DNA of 64,000 nucleotides from Deltaproteobacteria bacterium (GTDB taxonomy: Bacteria; Myxococcota_A; Bradymonadia; REDH01): positions 1-64,000 of the forward strand of contig REDH01000059.1 in NCBI GenBank assembly GCA_007693585.1, written 5' to 3'. Shown piece after piece: positions 7,997 to 45,169 of this stretch. Each line of letters begins with the position of its first letter. Positions within the stretch are counted from its first letter, which is position 1. The notes below the pieces were generated by a model. The model did no database searches and was not told the origin of the DNA. It saw only the letters and a program-made list of their open reading frames with translations. Made by a program: the position numbers and the translations under genes.

Positions 7997-8134
7997 CGCG
8001 CGGGGGGTGGAACCCCGTGTGAATGGCCTGTTGCCGGCCGCCGTCCATGGGGAAGGATCCACGCCCGTTCGCTCGCGGGCCTTCGCCCGCCGGTGTTCGC
8101 CCCAGCGCCCTCGACCCGTCCCGGAGCCCTCCCG

Positions 8135-10066
8135 ATGCCCTCTCGAAGCCTTCCGTTCGCGCGACGCGTCGCCTGTGCCACCCTCGCGCTGTCCCTCGGG
8201 ACGGCGCTGCCCGCTCTCGCCGACGAGGACGTCGATCCGCTGTTCGAGGAGCCCGCGCCGGTCGACCGGGCCGAGACGATCCGCGATCTCATCACCCTGG
8301 GTCTGGCCAGCGAGGACGCCGCAGTGCGGGCCTGGGCGCTTCGCGCGGCGGCTGCTCACGGAGATCGGGCCTGGCGCGACACCATCGCCGGCGAGCTCGA
8401 CAACGCGCAGTTCACCGTGCGGCTCAACGCTGCGCTGGCCCTGCTGGACCTCAACCACCGCGCGCGGGACGCCCAGGCCCGGATCACCGAGGACCTCGCC
8501 ACCGGCGACGCGCAGACGCGCGCCTATGTGCTCGACCGGGTGTTCCCGCTCCTCCCCGAGGCCACCCGGGCCCGGGTCCTGCGCGATGGCGTGGCCCGAA
8601 TGGATGAGGAGCTCGCCCTGCGCCAGACGCTCGCCCAGCTCGCCCGCCGGGCGACCGGCGCCGAGCACGCGGTCCTCGAAGCGGGAGCGGACATCGACGA
8701 TGCCGAGCGCCGCGCATGGTACGTCGACCCGGTGCGCCGGGCTGCGCGCGAGGAGGGACTCGGCCTCGCCGGCCGCCTCGTCGCCCAGCGAGACGCCGAA
8801 CGCCAGCGCGAGGGGCTCGCCATCCTGCAGGCCATCGCCACCGCCGACGCGCGCGCCGCCGCCGCCCCCCTGCTCCGCTCCTCGCACGCGGCCGTCGCGC
8901 AGGAGGCCGGACTCTACCTCGCCCGGTTCGGCGATACCGGCGCGCTCCAGAATGTCCGCGACCTCGCGCTCAACGCCGACATGGACGTCGAGCTCCGCAT
9001 CGAGGCCCTTCGCATCGTGCGCGACACGGCACCGCAGATGTTTTCGATGGAGCAACTCCAGGAGGCCATCCCGGGCTCCGGGGTGGAGCTGCGCGCCGCG
9101 CTGCACGAGGCCATCGGCGCCACCCGCTCTCCCGAGGCGGTCGCCTGGCTCGAGGCGCTCCTCGATGCCGACTTCGCCGAGGAGCGCATGGACGCCATCA
9201 GTGGCATCGGGTTCTCCGGCGTCGAGCGGCACGTCGAAACCGTCGGCCAGATCCTCGCCAGTCAGGGCGCCGTCAACATCCGGGTCCGGGCGGCGCGTGC
9301 CCTCGGTCACCTCGGCGGCGATGCCGCCGCCCAGCGCCTCGTGACCGCCCTTCGGATGGAGCGGGACAGCGACGTCAAGGCCCAGATCGTGCTCGCCATG
9401 GGCGACACCGGCTCCGCCGACGCGGCCCAGCCGATCCTCTACGAGTTCGCCCGCAACGACGACACCGTCACCGCCGCGGGACTCGACGCCCTGCGCGCCC
9501 TCGGCAACACGGAGATCGCTCCCCAGCTCGTCTCGGTCGCCAACAACTACCGCAACGCTTCCCTGCGGTGGCGCGCCGCCCTCGTCCTGACCCACCTCGA
9601 CCCGGCGCTCGGTGCCGAGCGACTCATCGCCATGCTCGACCGGCCCCCTGCAGGCTTCGAGAGCGACCTCGCCGGCCTCCCCGCCGACCTGCGTCGACAG
9701 GTCGACGCCCGCCTCCTGCGCCACGCCAACCCGGAGATCGCCGAGGCGGCCCTCGCCCGCGTGCGCAGCCACGCCGACGGCGGACTCGAGTTCCTCCGGC
9801 CCCTCGCCCTCGACGCGGCCTCCGCCGAGGTGCGCCGCGTCGCCATCAACGCCGTCACCAACGCCCGACAGCCGCAGGATGCCGAGCTTCTCACCGAGCT
9901 CACCCGGCATCGTGACCGTCAGGTCCGACTTCAGGCCTGGGCCGCCCTCGCCGAGATGCGCGACACCGACCAGGAGCAGCTCTTCGCCGATCAGCTCGGC
10001 ACCACCGACGTCGCCGTCCGCGTCATCGCCGCCTACGGCCTGATCCGCATGGGCCGCGCAAGCTGA
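8135..10066 (+). CDS. Exported HEAT-repeat protein
   Basis: 643 residues, from the ATG at 8135 with GGAG at 8123-8126; this start gives a clean signal peptide (VACATLALSLGTALPALA, cleaved before Asp30), whereas the longer frame from 8093 does not. The mature protein is almost entirely alpha-helical repeats of about 30-35 residues with the HEAT/PBS-lyase pattern, such as 'VRLNAALALLDLN', 'IRVRAARALGHLG', 'VKAQIVLAMGDTG' and 'VRVIAAYGLIRMG'. Such solenoids bind partner proteins, so this is probably a periplasmic scaffold. No catalytic residues are seen. Divergent from the AMIN-like operon (294 bp between starts). Confidence 0.85.
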   Translation: MPSRSLPFARRVACATLALSLGTALPALADEDVDPLFEEPAPVDRAETIRDLITLGLASEDAAVRAWALRAAAAHGDRAWRDTIAGELDNAQFTVRLNAALALLDLNHRARDAQARITEDLATGDAQTRAYVLDRVFPLLPEATRARVLRDGVARMDEELALRQTLAQLARRATGAEHAVLEAGADIDDAERRAWYVDPVRRAAREEGLGLAGRLVAQRDAERQREGLAILQAIATADARAAAAPLLRSSHAAVAQEAGLYLARFGDTGALQNVRDLALNADMDVELRIEALRIVRDTAPQMFSMEQLQEAIPGSGVELRAALHEAIGATRSPEAVAWLEALLDADFAEERMDAISGIGFSGVERHVETVGQILASQGAVNIRVRAARALGHLGGDAAAQRLVTALRMERDSDVKAQIVLAMGDTGSADAAQPILYEFARNDDTVTAAGLDALRALGNTEIAPQLVSVANNYRNASLRWRAALVLTHLDPALGAERLIAMLDRPPAGFESDLAGLPADLRRQVDARLLRHANPEIAEAALARVRSHADGGLEFLRPLALDAASAEVRRVAINAVTNARQPQDAELLTELTRHRDRQVRLQAWAALAEMRDTDQEQLFADQLGTTDVAVRVIAAYGLIRMGRAS

Positions 10067-36703: not shown

Positions 36704-39406
36704 ATGCGGATCGAACGCTGGTCGACCCTTGCAGGGCTGAGCGCAGCCCTGCTCCTTTTTTCCCTGCTTTCGGCGTGCGGCGGTGACGACGGCGCCGACG
36801 GCACGCGGTGCACGATCGAGGAGGCCGACGGCATAGCCACTCTCGTGTGCGATGATGGCACCTCGTTCCCGCTGCCGGCTGCGGGTGAGCCGGGGCCGGC
36901 GGGAGAGCCCGGTGCGCCCGGAGCTCCTGGTGCGCCCGGAGATACTGGTGCCCCAGGTGAGCCCGGAGATACTGGTGCGCCGGGCGAAACGGGGGAGCCC
37001 GGCGAACCCGGTGCGCCAGGTGAGCCCGGTGCGGGTTGTGATGTCGAGGAAGACGAGACCACTGGAGCCGTCCTCGTGACCTGTGGGGACTCCGATCCCG
37101 TGGAGATTCCCGCGGGCGCCTCATGCACGGTCACCGCAAACCTCGATGGCTCGGCCACGATCACCTGTGAGGATGGAACCTCGGTCGACATCGGTCGTCC
37201 AGGCCCGCCGACGGATGAACCAGTGCTCGAGCTGCTCGCGGGTGTGACATCCGTGGGCAGCAACGATGGCCTCGCCACCGAGACCCGCATGGATGGCGCC
37301 CTTCACGCGGCCTTCAGTCCGGACGGCAATTTCCTGTACTTCGTGGACTCCTTCAACGGCACGATCCGGCGGTTCGGTCTGGTGAGTGGCCGCGTCGTCA
37401 CCCTCGCGGGCCGAGCTGGCGAGGAAGGGGTCACCGACGGCCTCGGCAGCGAAGCGCTGTTCGAGAACCCGCGCGGCATCACCATCCACCCGGACGGGTC
37501 CACCCTCTACATCGCCGACGGGTTCAATTGCACCCTGCGGACCCTGGACACCGCGACCCGCGAGGTGCGTACCCTGTTCGGCGTTCCCCGCGAGTGTGGA
37601 TACGTGGACGGGGACTATGAGGAGGCGCGCATGGGGCTCGTGATCGGGATGGCCATGCAGGATGATCGCTACGTCTACCTGGCGCAGCGGGCCAATGGCG
37701 CGAACGCGATCCGGCGCATCGACCTCGAGGAGCAGCGCGTCGAGACCATCGCGGGCAGTGCGGCGCGCGGCCATGCGGATGGTCCGGGCGCCGAAGCCGA
37801 GTTCGCCGGTCCGGGCGGGATCGACTTCGACGAGACCGGGGAGTGGCTCTGGGTGAACGACACCTTCAACAACGTGATTCGTCGCATTTCGCTGACCGAG
37901 GTGGATGGCGATGGCGAACACACGTTCCGCGTGGAGACCGTGGCGGGAACGCCGGGCGCTGGGGGACACGTGGACGGGGATGGTCCGGATGCGCGCCTTG
38001 CGATCAGCCAGGGGCTGACCCGCGGCGTGGACGGATTCTACGTGGCCGGTTTCCACGACACCATTCGCCGCATTGCTCCGGAAGCACCGTTCACCGTCAC
38101 GACCGTGGCCGGCCGCAACGGCCAGAGCGGCAGCGCCGACGGCCACCCGTTCGAGGCGCGATTCGGGGTCGCCTTCGGCATTCACGCGCACCCGGACGGT
38201 GAGCGGATCTACTTCATGGACCGCGGGAACAACAACATCCGGGAGTACAACCTCACGGTCGGCCGTGTGACCACGGTCATGGGGGCCCCTCAGCCCACGG
38301 ACTGGCGAGACGGAGATGGCATGCACGCGCGCTTCCGCACCCCGGCCGGTGTGCTTCCCGATAGCGCCGGACGCTTCGTCTACATCGCCGACCAGTTCAA
38401 CAGCGTGGTCCGGCGGTACGACACCGCGACCCGCACCGTGGAGACCCTCGCCGGTCTTCCCCGAGCGTTTGGCTTCCAGGATGGCACCGCGGACGATGCG
38501 CTCTTCGACGAGCCTTCCGCTCTCGCCCTGAACGCGGACGAGACCGTCCTGTGGATCTCCGACATCGACAACCGCGCCATCCGGGCCCTCGACCTCGAGA
38601 CCCTGGAGGTCACCACGGTCACCGGCGGCCCCGATCGGATCGTCGAGTTCGAGGCTGGGGAGCCGGTCGCCGGCACTGTGATCGAGGGAGCGCTGGCCGA
38701 CGTCCACTGGGGACGGATCACCGGCCTCGCCTTCGATGCGGCGACGAACCGCGTCTTCGCCAGCGACTACAGCCTCGACCTGATCCGCGTCCTCGACCTC
38801 GAGACGGGCACCGTGTCCACCCTCGCGGGCGGTGCCCAGCCCCCGCTGGTGGAGGAGGTCGACGAGGACGGCAACCCCGTCCTGGACGAAGACGGCAACC
38901 CGGTGCTTGTCGTGGCCGACGAGTACGAGGTCGATGGCACCGGCGACGAGGCCATTCTCGACAGCCCCTACGGTCTCGCGCTCAGCGCGGATGGCGGCAC
39001 CCTCTACTTCGCCGACTTCTTCCATCACCTGATCCGCCAGGTGGACACCACGACCGGCGAGGTCACCACGATCGCGGGCGAGTACGGTGTCTCCGGCGCC
39101 TTCGACGACATCGGCCTCGACGCCGCATTCACGCGGCCCCGCAGCGTGGGTCTCAGCGCCGACGGCCAGCGTCTCTTCGTCGTCGACGGCGGCAACCACG
39201 CCGTGCGCCAGATCGACCTCGACACCCGGGAAGTCACCACGGTCGTCGGAGAGCTCGGCATCAGCGGCGGCTTCGGCTTCCGGTTCACCCCCCTCGACAT
39301 CGCCCGGCTGTACTTCCCGGGCAACCTCGCCGTGGACGGGGACGACATCCTGCTCACCGCCCGCAATGTCCTCTACCGGGTGCCCGGCCTCGCCGCCGCA
39401 CCCTGA
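36704..39406 (+). CDS. NHL-repeat lipoprotein with collagen-like stalk
   Basis: 900 residues. Lipoprotein signal (lipobox LSAC, Cys25). Residues 61-111 are 17 consecutive Gly-X-Y triplets (GEP, GAP, GDT types), a collagen-like rod. Two short Cys-containing beta units flank it (IATLVCDDGTS, ATITCEDGTS). From about 180 to the end come around ten NHL-type repeats of about 60-80 residues, each with a pattern like LFxxPxGIxxxPDGxxLYIADxxNxxIRxxDxxTxxVxTLAG. These build one or more beta-propellers on the cell surface. The role is unknown; NHL propellers usually bind proteins or ligands. Own promoter (36599-36637) and terminator (39431-39463). Confidence 0.9.
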   Translation: MRIERWSTLAGLSAALLLFSLLSACGGDDGADGTRCTIEEADGIATLVCDDGTSFPLPAAGEPGPAGEPGAPGAPGAPGDTGAPGEPGDTGAPGETGEPGEPGAPGEPGAGCDVEEDETTGAVLVTCGDSDPVEIPAGASCTVTANLDGSATITCEDGTSVDIGRPGPPTDEPVLELLAGVTSVGSNDGLATETRMDGALHAAFSPDGNFLYFVDSFNGTIRRFGLVSGRVVTLAGRAGEEGVTDGLGSEALFENPRGITIHPDGSTLYIADGFNCTLRTLDTATREVRTLFGVPRECGYVDGDYEEARMGLVIGMAMQDDRYVYLAQRANGANAIRRIDLEEQRVETIAGSAARGHADGPGAEAEFAGPGGIDFDETGEWLWVNDTFNNVIRRISLTEVDGDGEHTFRVETVAGTPGAGGHVDGDGPDARLAISQGLTRGVDGFYVAGFHDTIRRIAPEAPFTVTTVAGRNGQSGSADGHPFEARFGVAFGIHAHPDGERIYFMDRGNNNIREYNLTVGRVTTVMGAPQPTDWRDGDGMHARFRTPAGVLPDSAGRFVYIADQFNSVVRRYDTATRTVETLAGLPRAFGFQDGTADDALFDEPSALALNADETVLWISDIDNRAIRALDLETLEVTTVTGGPDRIVEFEAGEPVAGTVIEGALADVHWGRITGLAFDAATNRVFASDYSLDLIRVLDLETGTVSTLAGGAQPPLVEEVDEDGNPVLDEDGNPVLVVADEYEVDGTGDEAILDSPYGLALSADGGTLYFADFFHHLIRQVDTTTGEVTTIAGEYGVSGAFDDIGLDAAFTRPRSVGLSADGQRLFVVDGGNHAVRQIDLDTREVTTVVGELGISGGFGFRFTPLDIARLYFPGNLAVDGDDILLTARNVLYRVPGLAAAP

Positions 39407-39495: not shown

Positions 39496-40254
39496 ATGTC
39501 CCTTCGCGTTCTGCCTGTACTGCTTCCGAGTTTCGTCCTGGTGCTGGTGTCGTCCTGTGGAGACGATGACGGCATCGACACGGCGCCATCGGACGATCGT
39601 CCGCAGGTCATCGAGTCCAGCAGCGACCCATCCGCCGTGGCACCGACCGACAGCGCCGACCGTCCGGCCTCGTCGGAGGAACCCCGACCGGGCTCGTCGG
39701 CCCATGACGGCTCTGGCCCTGCGCCCACGGACTCGCCGGACCCGTCCGGCCCGGGCGGCTCGAGGCCATCCGACCCCGGGGCATCTGGCCCATCGGACCC
39801 GAGCGACCCAGGCGCGTCCGGGCCGTCCGACCCCGTGCCCCCTGACCCGTCGGAGCCGAGCGACCCGGTGGACTCGAGCGACCCGGTGGACCCGACCGTA
39901 CCCTCGTCCGAACCAGCGCCGGAGCCTGGCGAAGCCGCCATGCCCTGCGACGAGGAACGAAGGTGTGCCGACGACCTGCTCTGCATCCGGCTCGGCACGA
40001 CCCATGACGTCGGCTTCTGTGCGCCCACCTGCAGCGCCCTGCACACACCCTGTGGCTTCTTCGGTTCCGGCGTTCACGCCGAGTGCAGCATCGAGCTGGG
40101 CGATGGACGTCTGGCGTGCGGCTTCATCTGCGAGCTCAACCATGGCGACCACGTCCACAACTACTCGTGCCCGTCGGGTGACTGGGGCCGTCTGCGCTGC
40201 GAGCGTACGCGGCGCGACTTCGGCCATCGGTTCTGTGCGCCGAGCCAGAACTGA
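39496..40254 (+). CDS. Lipoprotein with Ser/Pro/Asp-rich spacer and Cys-rich end
   Basis: 252 residues. Lipobox SSC (Cys21). Residues 22-150 are low complexity, with repeated SDPGASGPSDP-like blocks, a likely extended tether. The last 100 residues contain about 12 cysteines (CDEERRCADDLLCIR, CAPTCSALHTPCGFF, CGFICELNHGDH), resembling a small disulfide-rich domain. No known family. It lies between two larger exported proteins on the same strand and may share their location. Confidence 0.8.
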   Translation: MSLRVLPVLLPSFVLVLVSSCGDDDGIDTAPSDDRPQVIESSSDPSAVAPTDSADRPASSEEPRPGSSAHDGSGPAPTDSPDPSGPGGSRPSDPGASGPSDPSDPGASGPSDPVPPDPSEPSDPVDSSDPVDPTVPSSEPAPEPGEAAMPCDEERRCADDLLCIRLGTTHDVGFCAPTCSALHTPCGFFGSGVHAECSIELGDGRLACGFICELNHGDHVHNYSCPSGDWGRLRCERTRRDFGHRFCAPSQN

Positions 40255-40346
40255 ACGCTCCTCGGACGACGGGGAACCCTCCCCGGTGCCCTGGGTCAGC
40301 CATCGCCGAGGCGGGGCGCGCGATTGGATCCGACCGGAGAAGTGAC

Positions 40347-43300
40347 ATGACTGCGACCTCTCGCGAACGAAGCCTCCGATGTCGCGCCCGTCTGCGGATC
40401 GGGGCCGTGCTTGTTGCGCTTGCCTTGTCCGGCCCGTGGGGGTGCGGCGGCGACGGGGAGTCCTCGCCGTCGTCCTCCCCCACGGTGCCGGCAACGCAGC
40501 CTCAGCCTCCGGACACCACGTCGGGAGAGCCTGCAGACACCTCCACGGACCCCGAGCCCACCGGCCCCGAGCCCACCGGCCCGGAGCCCACTCCATCGGA
40601 ACCCCCACCGGAGTGGACGTTCTCGCTGCCCCTGCAGGACTGGCCCGCCGCGTTTCTCTCCGTCTCCGGGACCGACGCCGATGACGTGTGGGTCGTGGGC
40701 GCCGAGCACGAGGGGCGTCCCGTCGTGCTCCACTGGAATGGAGACGCGTGGGAGCGGCGCGAAGCCCCATCGGAGCACACGCTCTGGTGGGTCCACGCCC
40801 TCGACCGCGAGCTCGTCTTCTTTGCCGGAGAGCACGGCCAGGTGCTTCGCTGGGCGGCGGGCGAATTCGAGCGCATGGACACCCCGTCGCTGGCGCGACA
40901 GACCGTCTTCGGCATCTGGGCCCGCGCACCGGATGATGTCTACGCCGTCGGCGGTGTGGGGAGCCGAAGTGGCTTCATCTGGCACCACGACGGCCACGCC
41001 TGGACGTCCCTCGACCTGCCGGGCGCGTCGCTGCCCCGACTGTGGCACGGAGCAACGCCCGCCCTGTTCAAGGTCTGGGGCGATGAACGGGACACCTTCT
41101 TCGTGGGGGGGCTCGGACAGGTGCTGCGCCGTCGCGGAGACGGTCCCGTGGAGCTTGTCCGGGCCGAGGGCGAAGACACCCTCTTCACCGTAGCCGGCCG
41201 CGCGGATGGCTCCGAAGTCCTCGCTGTCGGGGGAACGCTCTCCGCGCGTGTGGACCGCCTCGTGGGCGAAGGGGTGGACTCCGAGGTGCTGGAGGCGTTC
41301 CCGCTTCTGCAGGGCATCGCCTTCGCACCGGACGGGACGCCGTGGGCCTCCGGCGCGTTCGGCACACTCCTGCGCCGCATCGAAGGGGTGTGGGAGAACG
41401 TGAACACGGGTCTGGACGTCCCGGGTGAATCCCTCCACGCGGTCTGGATCGACCCCTCCGGCAACGTGTGGAGCGTCGGGGGCAATGTCATCTCGGCTGC
41501 GCTCGACGAGGGGGTGCTCCTCCACGGCGCCCGCTCCGACGGGTCATCGGTCCCCGCGTTGCTGCCCGCACCGGAACCGGCGCCCGAGGACACCACCTGC
41601 AACGACCCCCCGCCGGACCTCTCCAACTGGTCCATCGCCCGCGTCTGGAACGAGCAGACTCTGGGCGCCATCCGCCGTGCCCTCCCCGAACCGACCGTCC
41701 ACGCCCGGAACCTCTACCACGTGTCTCTCGCGCTGCACGACGCCTGGGCGGTCTTCGCGGCCGGAGAAGCAGGGCTCGTGCACGCCGAAAGCGCCCGTGC
41801 CCCGGATGACGGCGCGCGCACCGCCGCCATGAGCCACGCTGCCTTCCGTCTGCTGATGCACCGCTACGCCCACCGAACCGGGGGCCCCGTCTCCGTGGAC
41901 TGCTTTCGCCGCGCCATGGTCCTCCTGGACCTCGACCCCGACGACGACGACCTCGAAGGCCCATCCCCCGCCGCGCTCGGCAACCGCATCGGCCAGGCCG
42001 TCATCGACGCCTTCGCGCAGGACGGCAGCCACGAGCACCTCGACTACACCGACCCCGACTACCGCTACGGCAACCCCGCCCTCGTCGTCGACGATCCCGG
42101 GATCGACGTGGACGACATCGATACCTGGCAGCCGCTCGACCTGGCCGTCGCCGTGACCCAGAACGGCATCCCCGAGGACAGCGGCCCCCAGGCGTACATC
42201 GGACCGCACTGGGGTCAGGTCGTGCCTTTCGCGATTCGCCGCCCCGCCCCCGGAGTGCCCTACTTCGATGGCGGATCCCGCCCGTCGGTCCACGACGAGG
42301 AGATGGGGGAGTGGGTCGAGCAGGTCATCCGCCAGACCGCCTGGCTCGACATCGGTGACGGCGTCACGATGGACATCGCTCCGGGAGCCTACGGCAACAA
42401 CAGCCTCGGTGCCGACGACGGCACGGGACATCCGGTCAACCCGGCCACCGGCGAACCCTACGATCCGCAGGTGGTCCTGCGCGGGGACTTCGGCCGCGTG
42501 CTCGCGGAGTTCTGGGCGGACGGACCCGACTCGGAGACGCCGCCCGGCCACTGGAACGTGATGGCCCACGCCGCGTTCGATCACGCCGAATTCGAGCACC
42601 GCTGGATGGGCGAGGGGCCCCTCCTCGAACGTCTCGAATGGGACGTCCGCGCCCTCCTCGCCCTCAACGGCGCCCTGCATGACGCCGCCATCGTCGCCTG
42701 GGAGGTCAAGCGCGACTACGAGAGCGCCCGACCCGTCAGCCTCATCCGCTGGATGGCCGAGCAGGGCCAGCGCACCGAGCCCGCCGCCGCAGACTTCGAC
42801 CCGCGAGGTCTTCCCCTTGTTGCCGGACTCATCGAGCGGATCACCGACGAGAGCAGCGCCGCCGGCGAACGCCATGCCCACCTCGCGCCCCACGTCGGTG
42901 AGCTCGCCCTCTGGAGCTGGCCGGGTGACCCGGGTGACCCCCACCGCCAGCGGTCCGCGTTCCGGTGGATCCGCGCCGCCGACTGGATGCCCTACCAGCC
43001 CCGCACCTTCGTGACTCCGGCCTTTCCCGGATTCGTGTCCGGGCACAGCACCTTCAGCCGGGCCGCCGCGGACGTGCTCACCGCCCTCACCGGGTCGGCC
43101 TTCGTCCCGGGAGGACTGGGCGAGTTCGTCGCCCGGCAGAACGAATACCTCGAGTTCGAGCGCGGCCCGTCCACCGACGTGCGCCTCCAGTGGGCCACCT
43201 GGCAGGACGCTGCCGACCAGGCCGGACAGAGCAGGATCTGGGGCGGCATCCACGTCGTCCCCGATGACTTCGTCGGTCGGGAGATGGGCGCAGGGATCGC

Positions 43301-43859
43301 CGCGCGGGCCATCGCGTGGGCAGAAGCACGCTGGGGCGGAGACGGGGAACGCCCGGGCGTCCCCACGGGCACCCCGGAAGACATCCCCCCGGGCAGCGAT
43401 CCGCCACCGAGCGACGCCTTCCCCGCGCCGATCGGGGAAGGGCCCGATGGGGATGACGGCCTCGAGGTGGGGACCGGGCGCAGCGGGTTCGAGACCCTTC
43501 GCCATGGCGATCCTCTCCGCTGGGAAGCCGGCATCCAGGGTGGGCATCACGTCTGGGTCTCCGCACGACTCGCCGCAGGTCTCGTCGAGAACCTCGACGA
43601 CGACACCCGCCGCGAGATCCGCACCCGGTTGGTTCTCACCCGCGCGTCCGGGGACGTGCTCGGCGATCTCGTGCGCCTCGGGGGCTATCGCGAGACGGAC
43701 GACGGCTGGGATCAGTGGGGGAACTTCGTGATCCTTCGGCCGGGCATTCGTCCCGGACGCCTCGACGATGAGCCGCTCCGCCTCGACGCCACGGTCGAGG
43801 TGCCGGGACACGGCACGCTGGAGAGTGTGGTGTGGGTTCGCTCCGCCTGTTGCGATTGA
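40347..43859 (+). CDS. Propeller-vanadium haloperoxidase-type lipoprotein
   Basis: 1170 residues. The N-terminus is exported: hydrophobic ALALSGPWGC (Cys33, an imperfect lipobox) and a Pro/Thr/Glu tether to 90. Residues 95-400 have repeated beta blades (DDVWVVGAEHEG, DDVYAVGGVG, GSEVLAVGG, GNVWSVGG), propeller-like. Residues 415-1000 match PAP2-type vanadium haloperoxidases with the whole vanadate site: KX6RP at Lys788-Arg795-Pro796, VSGH at 897-900 (His900), and SRX5H at Ser962-Arg963-His969 followed by Asp. The spacing between the first two motifs is longer than usual. The last 140 residues are another beta domain. By family it would oxidise halides with H2O2 or act as a phosphatase; halide preference is not visible. 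An FAD oxidoreductase gene follows. Confidence 0.85.
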   Translation: MTATSRERSLRCRARLRIGAVLVALALSGPWGCGGDGESSPSSSPTVPATQPQPPDTTSGEPADTSTDPEPTGPEPTGPEPTPSEPPPEWTFSLPLQDWPAAFLSVSGTDADDVWVVGAEHEGRPVVLHWNGDAWERREAPSEHTLWWVHALDRELVFFAGEHGQVLRWAAGEFERMDTPSLARQTVFGIWARAPDDVYAVGGVGSRSGFIWHHDGHAWTSLDLPGASLPRLWHGATPALFKVWGDERDTFFVGGLGQVLRRRGDGPVELVRAEGEDTLFTVAGRADGSEVLAVGGTLSARVDRLVGEGVDSEVLEAFPLLQGIAFAPDGTPWASGAFGTLLRRIEGVWENVNTGLDVPGESLHAVWIDPSGNVWSVGGNVISAALDEGVLLHGARSDGSSVPALLPAPEPAPEDTTCNDPPPDLSNWSIARVWNEQTLGAIRRALPEPTVHARNLYHVSLALHDAWAVFAAGEAGLVHAESARAPDDGARTAAMSHAAFRLLMHRYAHRTGGPVSVDCFRRAMVLLDLDPDDDDLEGPSPAALGNRIGQAVIDAFAQDGSHEHLDYTDPDYRYGNPALVVDDPGIDVDDIDTWQPLDLAVAVTQNGIPEDSGPQAYIGPHWGQVVPFAIRRPAPGVPYFDGGSRPSVHDEEMGEWVEQVIRQTAWLDIGDGVTMDIAPGAYGNNSLGADDGTGHPVNPATGEPYDPQVVLRGDFGRVLAEFWADGPDSETPPGHWNVMAHAAFDHAEFEHRWMGEGPLLERLEWDVRALLALNGALHDAAIVAWEVKRDYESARPVSLIRWMAEQGQRTEPAAADFDPRGLPLVAGLIERITDESSAAGERHAHLAPHVGELALWSWPGDPGDPHRQRSAFRWIRAADWMPYQPRTFVTPAFPGFVSGHSTFSRAAADVLTALTGSAFVPGGLGEFVARQNEYLEFERGPSTDVRLQWATWQDAADQAGQSRIWGGIHVVPDDFVGREMGAGIAARAIAWAEARWGGDGERPGVPTGTPEDIPPGSDPPPSDAFPAPIGEGPDGDDGLEVGTGRSGFETLRHGDPLRWEAGIQGGHHVWVSARLAAGLVENLDDDTRREIRTRLVLTRASGDVLGDLVRLGGYRETDDGWDQWGNFVILRPGIRPGRLDDEPLRLDATVEVPGHGTLESVVWVRSACCD

Positions 43860-43878
43860 GTCCAGGAGCGAGTAACTT
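43850..43878 (+). promoter_or_regulatory. Candidate promoter of the FAD oxidoreductase
   Basis: TTGCGA (43850-43855), spacer 17, TAACTT (43873-43878). The -35 lies in the last codons of the haloperoxidase gene; the ATG is about 88 bases downstream. Confidence 0.4.
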
Positions 43879-43966
43879 GCAACAGAAGGTGGCTGGCATC
43901 TTCGCGGGCGACCTCATCACGGTCGTTCCGCGGAGTGCGTGACCGTTTCCGGCGAGGCTCCATCTC

Positions 43967-45169
43967 ATGCTCGACTGGCTGATCATCGGCGGGGGAATTC
44001 ACGGCGTGCACGTGGCGGCCTCGCTGCGCGGCCGTGCGGGCGTGGACGGGCGACGGCTCCGGATCGTCGACCCGGGTGCGCAACTCCTCGACCGCTGGCG
44101 TGCGTGCACTGGCGTGACGGGCATGACCCATCTCCGTTCGCCGGCGGTGCACCATCTGGCGCTCGAGCCGATGTCGCTCCACCAGTACGCCGGCCAGCGC
44201 CGACACCGGGCGCCGGGTGTGTTCGCCCCGCCGTACGATCGGCCTTCCCTCGCGCTCTTCAACGCGCACTGCGACGCGGTCATCGAGGAGCACGGTCTCG
44301 CGGCCGGTCATGTCCGAGCCCGGGCGACCTCCGTCGATCGCGTTCCGGACGGGTGGACTGTCCACCTCGACGGTGGGGCGAAGCTGGACACCCGGCAGCT
44401 CGTGCTGGCCATGGGCAGCGCCGAGGCGCCGGCGATGCCCGCCTGGTCGCTCGCAGCGGGTGAGGCCGTACGGCATGTCTTCGACCCTGCGTTGATGTGG
44501 CCGTCGTCCGCGCCGCCGTTGCGGATCGCCGTGGTGGGCGGGGGCATCACCGCCTGCCAGGTGGCCTTGCGGCTTGCCGGCGAGGGGCACGCGGTACACC
44601 TGCTGTGCCGTCATGCGTTGCGCGAGCACCAGTTCGACAGTGATCCGGGCTGGCTCGGTCCGAAGTACATGGCGGCGTTCGAGCGGGAGCGGGACTGGGG
44701 GGCGCGCAGGCGGATGATCGCCCGCGCTCGTCATCGGGGTTCCGTGCCTCCGGACGTGCATGCGGCCATCCGTCGGGCCCGCGAGGGTGGACGCCTGCGC
44801 ATCCACGAGTCCGGGGTGGTCGGATGCGTCACGACTTTGGCGGGAGAGGTGCGGCTGCGGACCGACGAAGGGGAGTTCCCGACGGGGTTGGATCGGGTGC
44901 TGCTCGCGACCGGGTTCGCGACCGAGCGGCCGGGCGGAGACCTGGTGGACCGGTTGGTGGAGGAGGAGCGCCTCGCGGTGGCGCCCTGTGGCTATCCGGT
45001 GGTGGATGGCAGCCTGCAGTGGGCCTCGGGGCTGTTCGTGACGGGTCCGCTTGCGGAGCTGGAGCTGGGGCCCTCGTCTCGCAACATTGCGGGGGCGCGT
45101 CGTGCGGGGGAGCGCCTTGTGGCGCGCGTTCGGTCGGCCGGCGTGTCGGAGGGTCGCTGGGCGAGCTGA
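43967..45169 (+). CDS. FAD/NAD(P)-dependent oxidoreductase (flavin monooxygenase-like)
   Basis: 400 residues with two dinucleotide-binding sites: FAD motif IIGGGIHGVHVA at residues 6-17, and a second VVGGGITACQVA near 190-200 for NAD(P)H. An ATGF motif (LLATGFATE) near 310 closes the fold, as in single-component flavin-dependent monooxygenases and ornithine hydroxylase (SidA/PvdA) relatives. The substrate is unknown. It may reduce or oxygenate a product of the adjacent haloperoxidase, but only gene order suggests it. Convergent with korB, 77 bp between stops. Confidence 0.85.
   Translation: MLDWLIIGGGIHGVHVAASLRGRAGVDGRRLRIVDPGAQLLDRWRACTGVTGMTHLRSPAVHHLALEPMSLHQYAGQRRHRAPGVFAPPYDRPSLALFNAHCDAVIEEHGLAAGHVRARATSVDRVPDGWTVHLDGGAKLDTRQLVLAMGSAEAPAMPAWSLAAGEAVRHVFDPALMWPSSAPPLRIAVVGGGITACQVALRLAGEGHAVHLLCRHALREHQFDSDPGWLGPKYMAAFERERDWGARRRMIARARHRGSVPPDVHAAIRRAREGGRLRIHESGVVGCVTTLAGEVRLRTDEGEFPTGLDRVLLATGFATERPGGDLVDRLVEEERLAVAPCGYPVVDGSLQWASGLFVTGPLAELELGPSSRNIAGARRAGERLVARVRSAGVSEGRWAS

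Follow-up and report, generated by a model that had tools for sequence, protein, structure and literature searches.

The 64,000-nucleotide stretch of DNA analyzed here (the window) encodes a 1170-residue protein that is, by its predicted fold and its active-site residues, a member of the vanadium haloperoxidase superfamily; its domains are arranged in a new way, and it has conserved lipoprotein partners (Table 1). Most known vanadium haloperoxidases come from algae, fungi, Streptomyces, and Zobellia, and the family can make bleach-like oxidants. To our knowledge, none of the members of the bacterial family found here has been characterized. Three open reading frames that a sequence-only reading had described, for a Cys-rich lipoprotein, the haloperoxidase-like protein, and an FAD oxidoreductase, were all recovered at the positions given there.

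Table 1. Features of the haloperoxidase locus (window positions).
Feature	Position	Strand	Basis
NHL-repeat propeller lipoprotein (predicted) with collagen-like GXY stretch, 900 aa; conserved neighbor	36704..39406	+	Pfam SGL, NHL, Collagen
Cys-rich lipoprotein (predicted), 252 aa; conserved neighbor	39496..40254	+	Strong homologues in same locus type
Putative lipoprotein, 1170 aa: YCF48-like propeller, vanadium-haloperoxidase core, C-terminal beta domain	40347..43859	+	
Signal region to Cys33, degenerate lipobox PWGC	40347..40445	+	Sequence; Cys conserved in homologues
YCF48-like beta-propeller, residues 90-401	40614..41549	+	AF2, Foldseek, profile vs PDB
Vanadium-haloperoxidase core, residues 415-1000 (DUF6851 460-566; VCPO_2nd 873-971)	41589..43346	+	Pfam, profile, Foldseek
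K788 and R795, predicted vanadate ligands of first motif KX6RP; W785 upstream	42708..42731	+	Invariant in 27 cores
S898-G899-H900 motif with predicted acid-base His; F893 upstream	43038..43046	+	Invariant in 27 cores
R963 and H969 (SRxxxGxH), predicted vanadate-binding Arg and His	43233..43253	+	Invariant; aligns with Zobellia SRMYGGIH
C-terminal beta domain, ends in CCD; in relatives encoded upstream as a lipoprotein of its own	43407..43856	+	
FAD/NAD(P)-binding oxidoreductase, co-directional neighbor, not a conserved partner	43967..45169	+	Pfam NAD_binding_9/Pyr_redox_2

Domain order and active site

A hydrophobic N-terminus that ends at Cys33 agrees with the earlier claim that the protein is exported. 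The lipobox of this copy, P-W-G-C, falls outside the consensus [LVI][ASTVI][GAS]C; the signal-region Cys is kept in homologues with readable starts, several of which fit the consensus, e.g., LAGC. The product is presumably lipidated and probably located outside the cell. An AlphaFold2 (AF2) model of residues 86-1170, built from an input alignment of 42 rows, reached a mean pLDDT of 86.3 and a pTM of 0.81, and predicts, in order, 320 residues of propeller strands, a helical core, a disordered linker (model residues 915-969, pLDDT < 50), and a beta domain. The propeller that the sequence-only reading had placed in front of the enzyme is borne out, with pLDDT mostly above 90; its sequence profile found only Ycf48-like proteins in the PDB (5ojp, 2.7e-7), and Foldseek matched the modeled domain to 7-bladed propellers, YCF48 (2xbg) among them.

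Pfam, PDB profiles, AF2, and Foldseek all support the haloperoxidase assignment and the domain order. DUF6851 and VCPO_2nd scored 44.6 and 30.6 bits, respectively (Pfam cut-off 27 for each), while NCBIfam offered no equivalog for the enzyme. Among solved sequences, the closest to the protein are vanadium haloperoxidases, and the significant PDB profile matches of the core were all vanadium haloperoxidases or their homologues (9ptr, 9e-29; NapH1, 2e-19; Zobellia, 3e-12; Curvularia, 5e-6); a profile of the 118-position K/R segment was too short and did not align the Curvularia enzyme. The core was modeled with pLDDT above 90 over most of its length as two helical bundles in a cylinder-like fold. 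XhnO11, NapH1, and NapH3 headed the Foldseek matches (E 1e-16 to 1e-17, TM(target) 0.73-0.79; for NapH1, 3w35, E 2.8e-17 and TM(target) 0.79), followed by Curvularia chloroperoxidase, Zobellia iodoperoxidase, and then the 7-bladed propellers, including YCF48. Hence the haloperoxidase bundles, for which structure prediction had been proposed as a check, are present in the predicted fold, and the nearest solved relatives are haloperoxidases and not PAP2 phosphatases.

K788, R795, H900, R963, and H969 stand at the positions reported earlier, and the vanadate/phosphate-binding pair S898-G899, absent from that list, is also present. W785, K788, R795, F893, S898, G899, H900, R963, and H969 showed no variation across 27 homologous cores spanning roughly eight phyla or more (Myxococcota, Chloroflexota, Actinomycetota, Verrucomicrobiota, Planctomycetota, Acidobacteriota, Pseudomonadota, Binatota, and others). 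Because the seven motif residues and also W785 and F893 are invariant in these cores, the motif is not a product of chance. Its spacing presumably matches that of K353, R360, S402, G403, H404, R490, H496, W350, and F397 of the Curvularia enzyme, in which case we take W785 and F893 to be the counterparts of W350 and F397.

The motif nevertheless does not settle the chemistry, which is the main uncertainty, because its form KX6RP / SGH / SRX5HX3D is common to haloperoxidases and PAP2 acid phosphatases and because Curvularia apo-chloroperoxidase shows phosphatase activity (PMC4859513). An exported acid phosphatase, whose pocket would bind phosphate and which would release phosphate from phosphorylated sugars or polyols close to the cell, might also account for the distant relatives of the core in sugar-uptake loci. 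We consider this unlikely: the PAP2 domain scored below its Pfam threshold (18.2 bits, cut-off 27.2), the core has the DUF6851 first bundle that single-bundle phosphatases do not have, and the solved proteins matched by the core are haloperoxidases only. A PAP2 family search of the window's own genome returned a sole match, this same gene, again below the cut-off.

Similarly improbable is a haloperoxidase-like protein with non-halogenating chemistry (a NapH3-like rearrangement or sulfoxidation) or one devoted chiefly to peroxide removal, although NapH3 (8cxl), a non-halogenating homologue by its structure title, ranks with the nearest solved folds. In this family, the segments SGH and SRxxGGIH align with those of Zobellia iodoperoxidase, where the His is kept, while at the same place in the alignment XhnO11 has SGS and NapH3 has SGF, both lacking the His (NapH1 was not aligned there). 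The trait of having no His after S-G is not seen in this family, since H900 is present and invariant in the 27 cores. The protein also appears to be exported, judging from its N-terminus, and has no evident biosynthetic cluster around it.

Partners in the locus and the neighboring flavoprotein

Homology places the NHL/collagen-like lipoprotein, which is encoded outside the interval covered by the sequence-only reading, as the most conserved partner of the enzyme. Across 58 relatives of the window genome, its homologues at E<1e-100 occur only beside propeller-haloperoxidase genes, twice in the window's own genome (G000, with C129) and in G030, G013, and G027; weaker homologues adjoin propeller-core genes in G054 and L054. 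The collagen-like GXY stretch lies near the start of the protein, at residues about 60-110.

The Cys-rich lipoprotein has no Pfam or NCBIfam match. Its strong homologues all lie in propeller-haloperoxidase loci (G000:C129, G030, and G013), so that its earlier pairing with the enzyme is upheld. The C-terminal 120 aa hold 12 invariant Cys and 4 invariant His; this region (39892-40251) keeps an HGDHxH cluster together with the 12 Cys, a possible metal site. On contig C129 the genes follow the order NHL, Cys-rich, enzyme, as in the window. Gene order varies among lineages, and therefore linkage has been kept while the genes were rearranged. In other lineages (G001, G006, G008, and G035) the enzyme gene stands alone.

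The beta domain behind the core was also described earlier; its standing as a conserved domain is confirmed, while its fold was modeled only modestly (pLDDT 54-76 within the long model and 74 when modeled alone) and had no significant PDB match, a fold search returning weak beta-sandwich matches only (best E 1.3e-3). In G049, G030, and G013 the domain is encoded by a lipoprotein gene of its own, immediately upstream of the propeller-core gene, and in G027 a separate gene for it is followed at once by the start of a propeller-core gene at the contig end. Only in the window copy and its paralogue on contig C36 is the domain joined to the downstream end of the propeller-core protein. In the tree, the loci with this domain group as a single clade of five (support 100; G027 not included). 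All six copies, fused or separate, terminate in Cys-Cys-Asp (43848-43856 in the window), for which a vicinal disulfide, a metal site, and a sorting tail are candidate meanings.

The FAD oxidoreductase fares differently. The sequence-only reading had joined it with the Cys-rich lipoprotein and the haloperoxidase in a halogenation or surface-oxidation unit; in such a unit the flavoprotein might supply H2O2. All three genes run in the same direction, separated by ~90-110 bp, and the Cys-rich gene is a conserved neighbor, which leaves that part of the proposal standing. However, strong flavoprotein orthologues were found in about 14 relatives, and in 7/7 genomes that also hold a propeller-core gene (G054, G013, G027, G008, G035, G030, and G049) they lie on another contig or ~98 kb off. 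Related loci contained no flavoprotein-like gene, and the protein starts MLDWLIIGGGIHG, a Rossmann motif, with no evident signal sequence. Because its orthologues lie elsewhere in these seven genomes, the proposed unit needs changing; we rejected the flavoprotein as a partner and regard the three-gene unit as very improbable. The locus has no conserved H2O2 source, a point against the haloperoxidase reading itself. By conservation of linkage, the NHL/collagen-like lipoprotein, the Cys-rich lipoprotein, and the C-terminal domain are better partners than the flavoprotein.

Family spread and recurrent pairing with propellers

Scanning one genome per species returned at least 580 relatives of the core. 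A homology search for the same domain order had been suggested as a check, and a YCF48-like propeller precedes the core in 14 of the best 80 of these at least 580 loci. All such loci are labeled myxobacterial or deltaproteobacterial with the exception of L050, a single-cell contig labeled Candidatus Hydrogenedens, which may reflect transfer or a mislabeled contig. Homologues are also present in two cultured myxobacteria, Corallococcus llansteffanensis and Corallococcus sp. CA053C. In a tree of 87 cores, 22 propeller fusions fall inside one branch of 24 (SH-aLRT 100), whose two non-fused members, likewise from Myxococcota, have apparently lost it. By this phylogeny, the YCF48-like fusion forms one Myxococcota clade with one later loss. 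The propeller-core protein (E<1e-200) is present in 13 of the 58 relatives of the window genome, itself counted. The window genome holds two full copies (C62 and C36) plus one truncated at the edge of contig C129; the second full copy, at G000:C36:14097-17555, carries the fused C-terminal domain, and the truncated one spans G000:C129:1-3947. On another myxobacterial contig, L046, the fusion gene has on its upstream side a further stretch of YCF48-like propeller (8001-8864).

Outside this clade the core is found with a different propeller. Among the 80 loci (L043-L122), it is fused to FG-GAP repeats and UnbV/ASPIC in 7 (Opitutaceae, Actinomycetota, and Binatota), and an FG-GAP/UnbV-like gene is its immediate neighbor in 23 more, vs. 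5.7 expected if such genes were placed at random within their loci (p<1e-4). A Pfam check of ten adjacent genes found FG-GAP and UnbV in all ten. On the tree, the FG-GAP fusion calls for two or more changes on top of the YCF48-like one, and therefore the core has been coupled to propellers several times. Its recurrence in several phyla, fused with or beside propellers, suggests that core and propeller work as a pair.

In Chloroflexota and Actinomycetota, a XylF/H-type ABC transporter lies beside the core in 16/25 loci (L060, L065, L068, L069, L072, L077-L080, L082-L085, L088, L096, and L101), many of the remaining contigs being short. These xylose loci often also hold xylulokinase, xylose isomerase, a ROK regulator, and a Gfo-type dehydrogenase. 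We tentatively suggest that this widespread, apparently uncharacterized family of exported haloperoxidases could be a two-part machine of core plus propeller, either fused or encoded side by side, with a YCF48-like propeller in Myxococcota and FG-GAP/UnbV in other groups. The propeller might dock the oxidant source on a polymer or cell surface; the link to xylose uptake in Chloroflexota and Actinomycetota would then point to bacterial oxidative attack on plant polymers, similar to what has been suggested for chloroperoxidases of fungi. Searches of the open-licence literature returned no paper on DUF6851, none joining vanadium chloroperoxidase to FG-GAP or relevant for UnbV with haloperoxidase, and none on haloperoxidase in Corallococcus, which is weak evidence of absence in each case.

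Proposed function and comparison with known systems

The reading that we favor, and hold to be somewhat probable, is of an exported, lipid-anchored enzyme of the vanadium haloperoxidase type that acts at the outer surface of the cell, with the propeller or propellers holding it to a substrate or partner. The core would bind vanadate via K788, R795, S898, G899, R963, and H969, with H900 as the acid-base residue, and by family chemistry would oxidize halide extracellularly with H2O2, yielding hypohalous acid. The YCF48-like propeller at the N-terminus may hold the enzyme to a macromolecular target or partner, and because of this proposed tethering a short-lived oxidant would be made beside its target. 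In this lineage, the NHL/collagen-like, Cys-rich, and C-terminal-domain proteins may help to place the enzyme there. The analysis documents the active-site residues, the predicted fold, their conservation, the domain order, and the gene linkage; lipidation, use of vanadium and halide, surface exposure, the role of the propeller, and complex formation are what we infer from these sequences and models. Roles proposed for haloperoxidases in soil include microbial antagonism and defense against peroxide (PMC4926216), and fungal chloroperoxidases have been suggested to chlorinate lignin and humic acids (PMC6299022). Both possibilities are compatible with the findings; in other phyla the xylose loci favor the second, and for the myxobacterial version the data favor neither.

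A large exported bacterial family, with at least 580 relatives and repeatedly paired with propellers, would provide haloperoxidases with both a partner and a site at which they act. It would also offer specific genes with which to ask what bacteria produce organohalogens in soil and freshwater, and the xylose-locus linkage offers a testable role in the breakdown of plant matter.

The best matches among known systems are the NapH1-type enzymes (NapH1, 3w35/3w36; NapH3, 8cxl; XhnO11, 9l8x; and 9ptr), which share the two-bundle fold and the vanadate motif at ~18-20% identity in fold alignments; no propeller or lipobox was seen in them, and the two checked, XhnO11 and NapH3, lack the His of SGH. 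The vanadium iodoperoxidase of the marine Zobellia galactanivorans, with a solved structure (4cit/4usz), aligns at SGH and SRxxGGIH but has no propeller and a different first bundle (15-16% identity, Foldseek). Curvularia inaequalis vanadium chloroperoxidase (1vnc/1idq) has two bundles as here, but is fungal and has no propeller (~15% identity). The N-terminal domain is of the same propeller type as the photosystem II assembly factor YCF48 (2xbg, 5ojp), with 15-16% identity, though here it is fused to an enzyme and has no photosynthesis context. Finally, the FG-GAP/UnbV(ASPIC) fusions of Opitutaceae, Actinomycetota, and Binatota join the same core family to a propeller, but one of an unrelated family, accompanied by a UnbV domain and gained separately.
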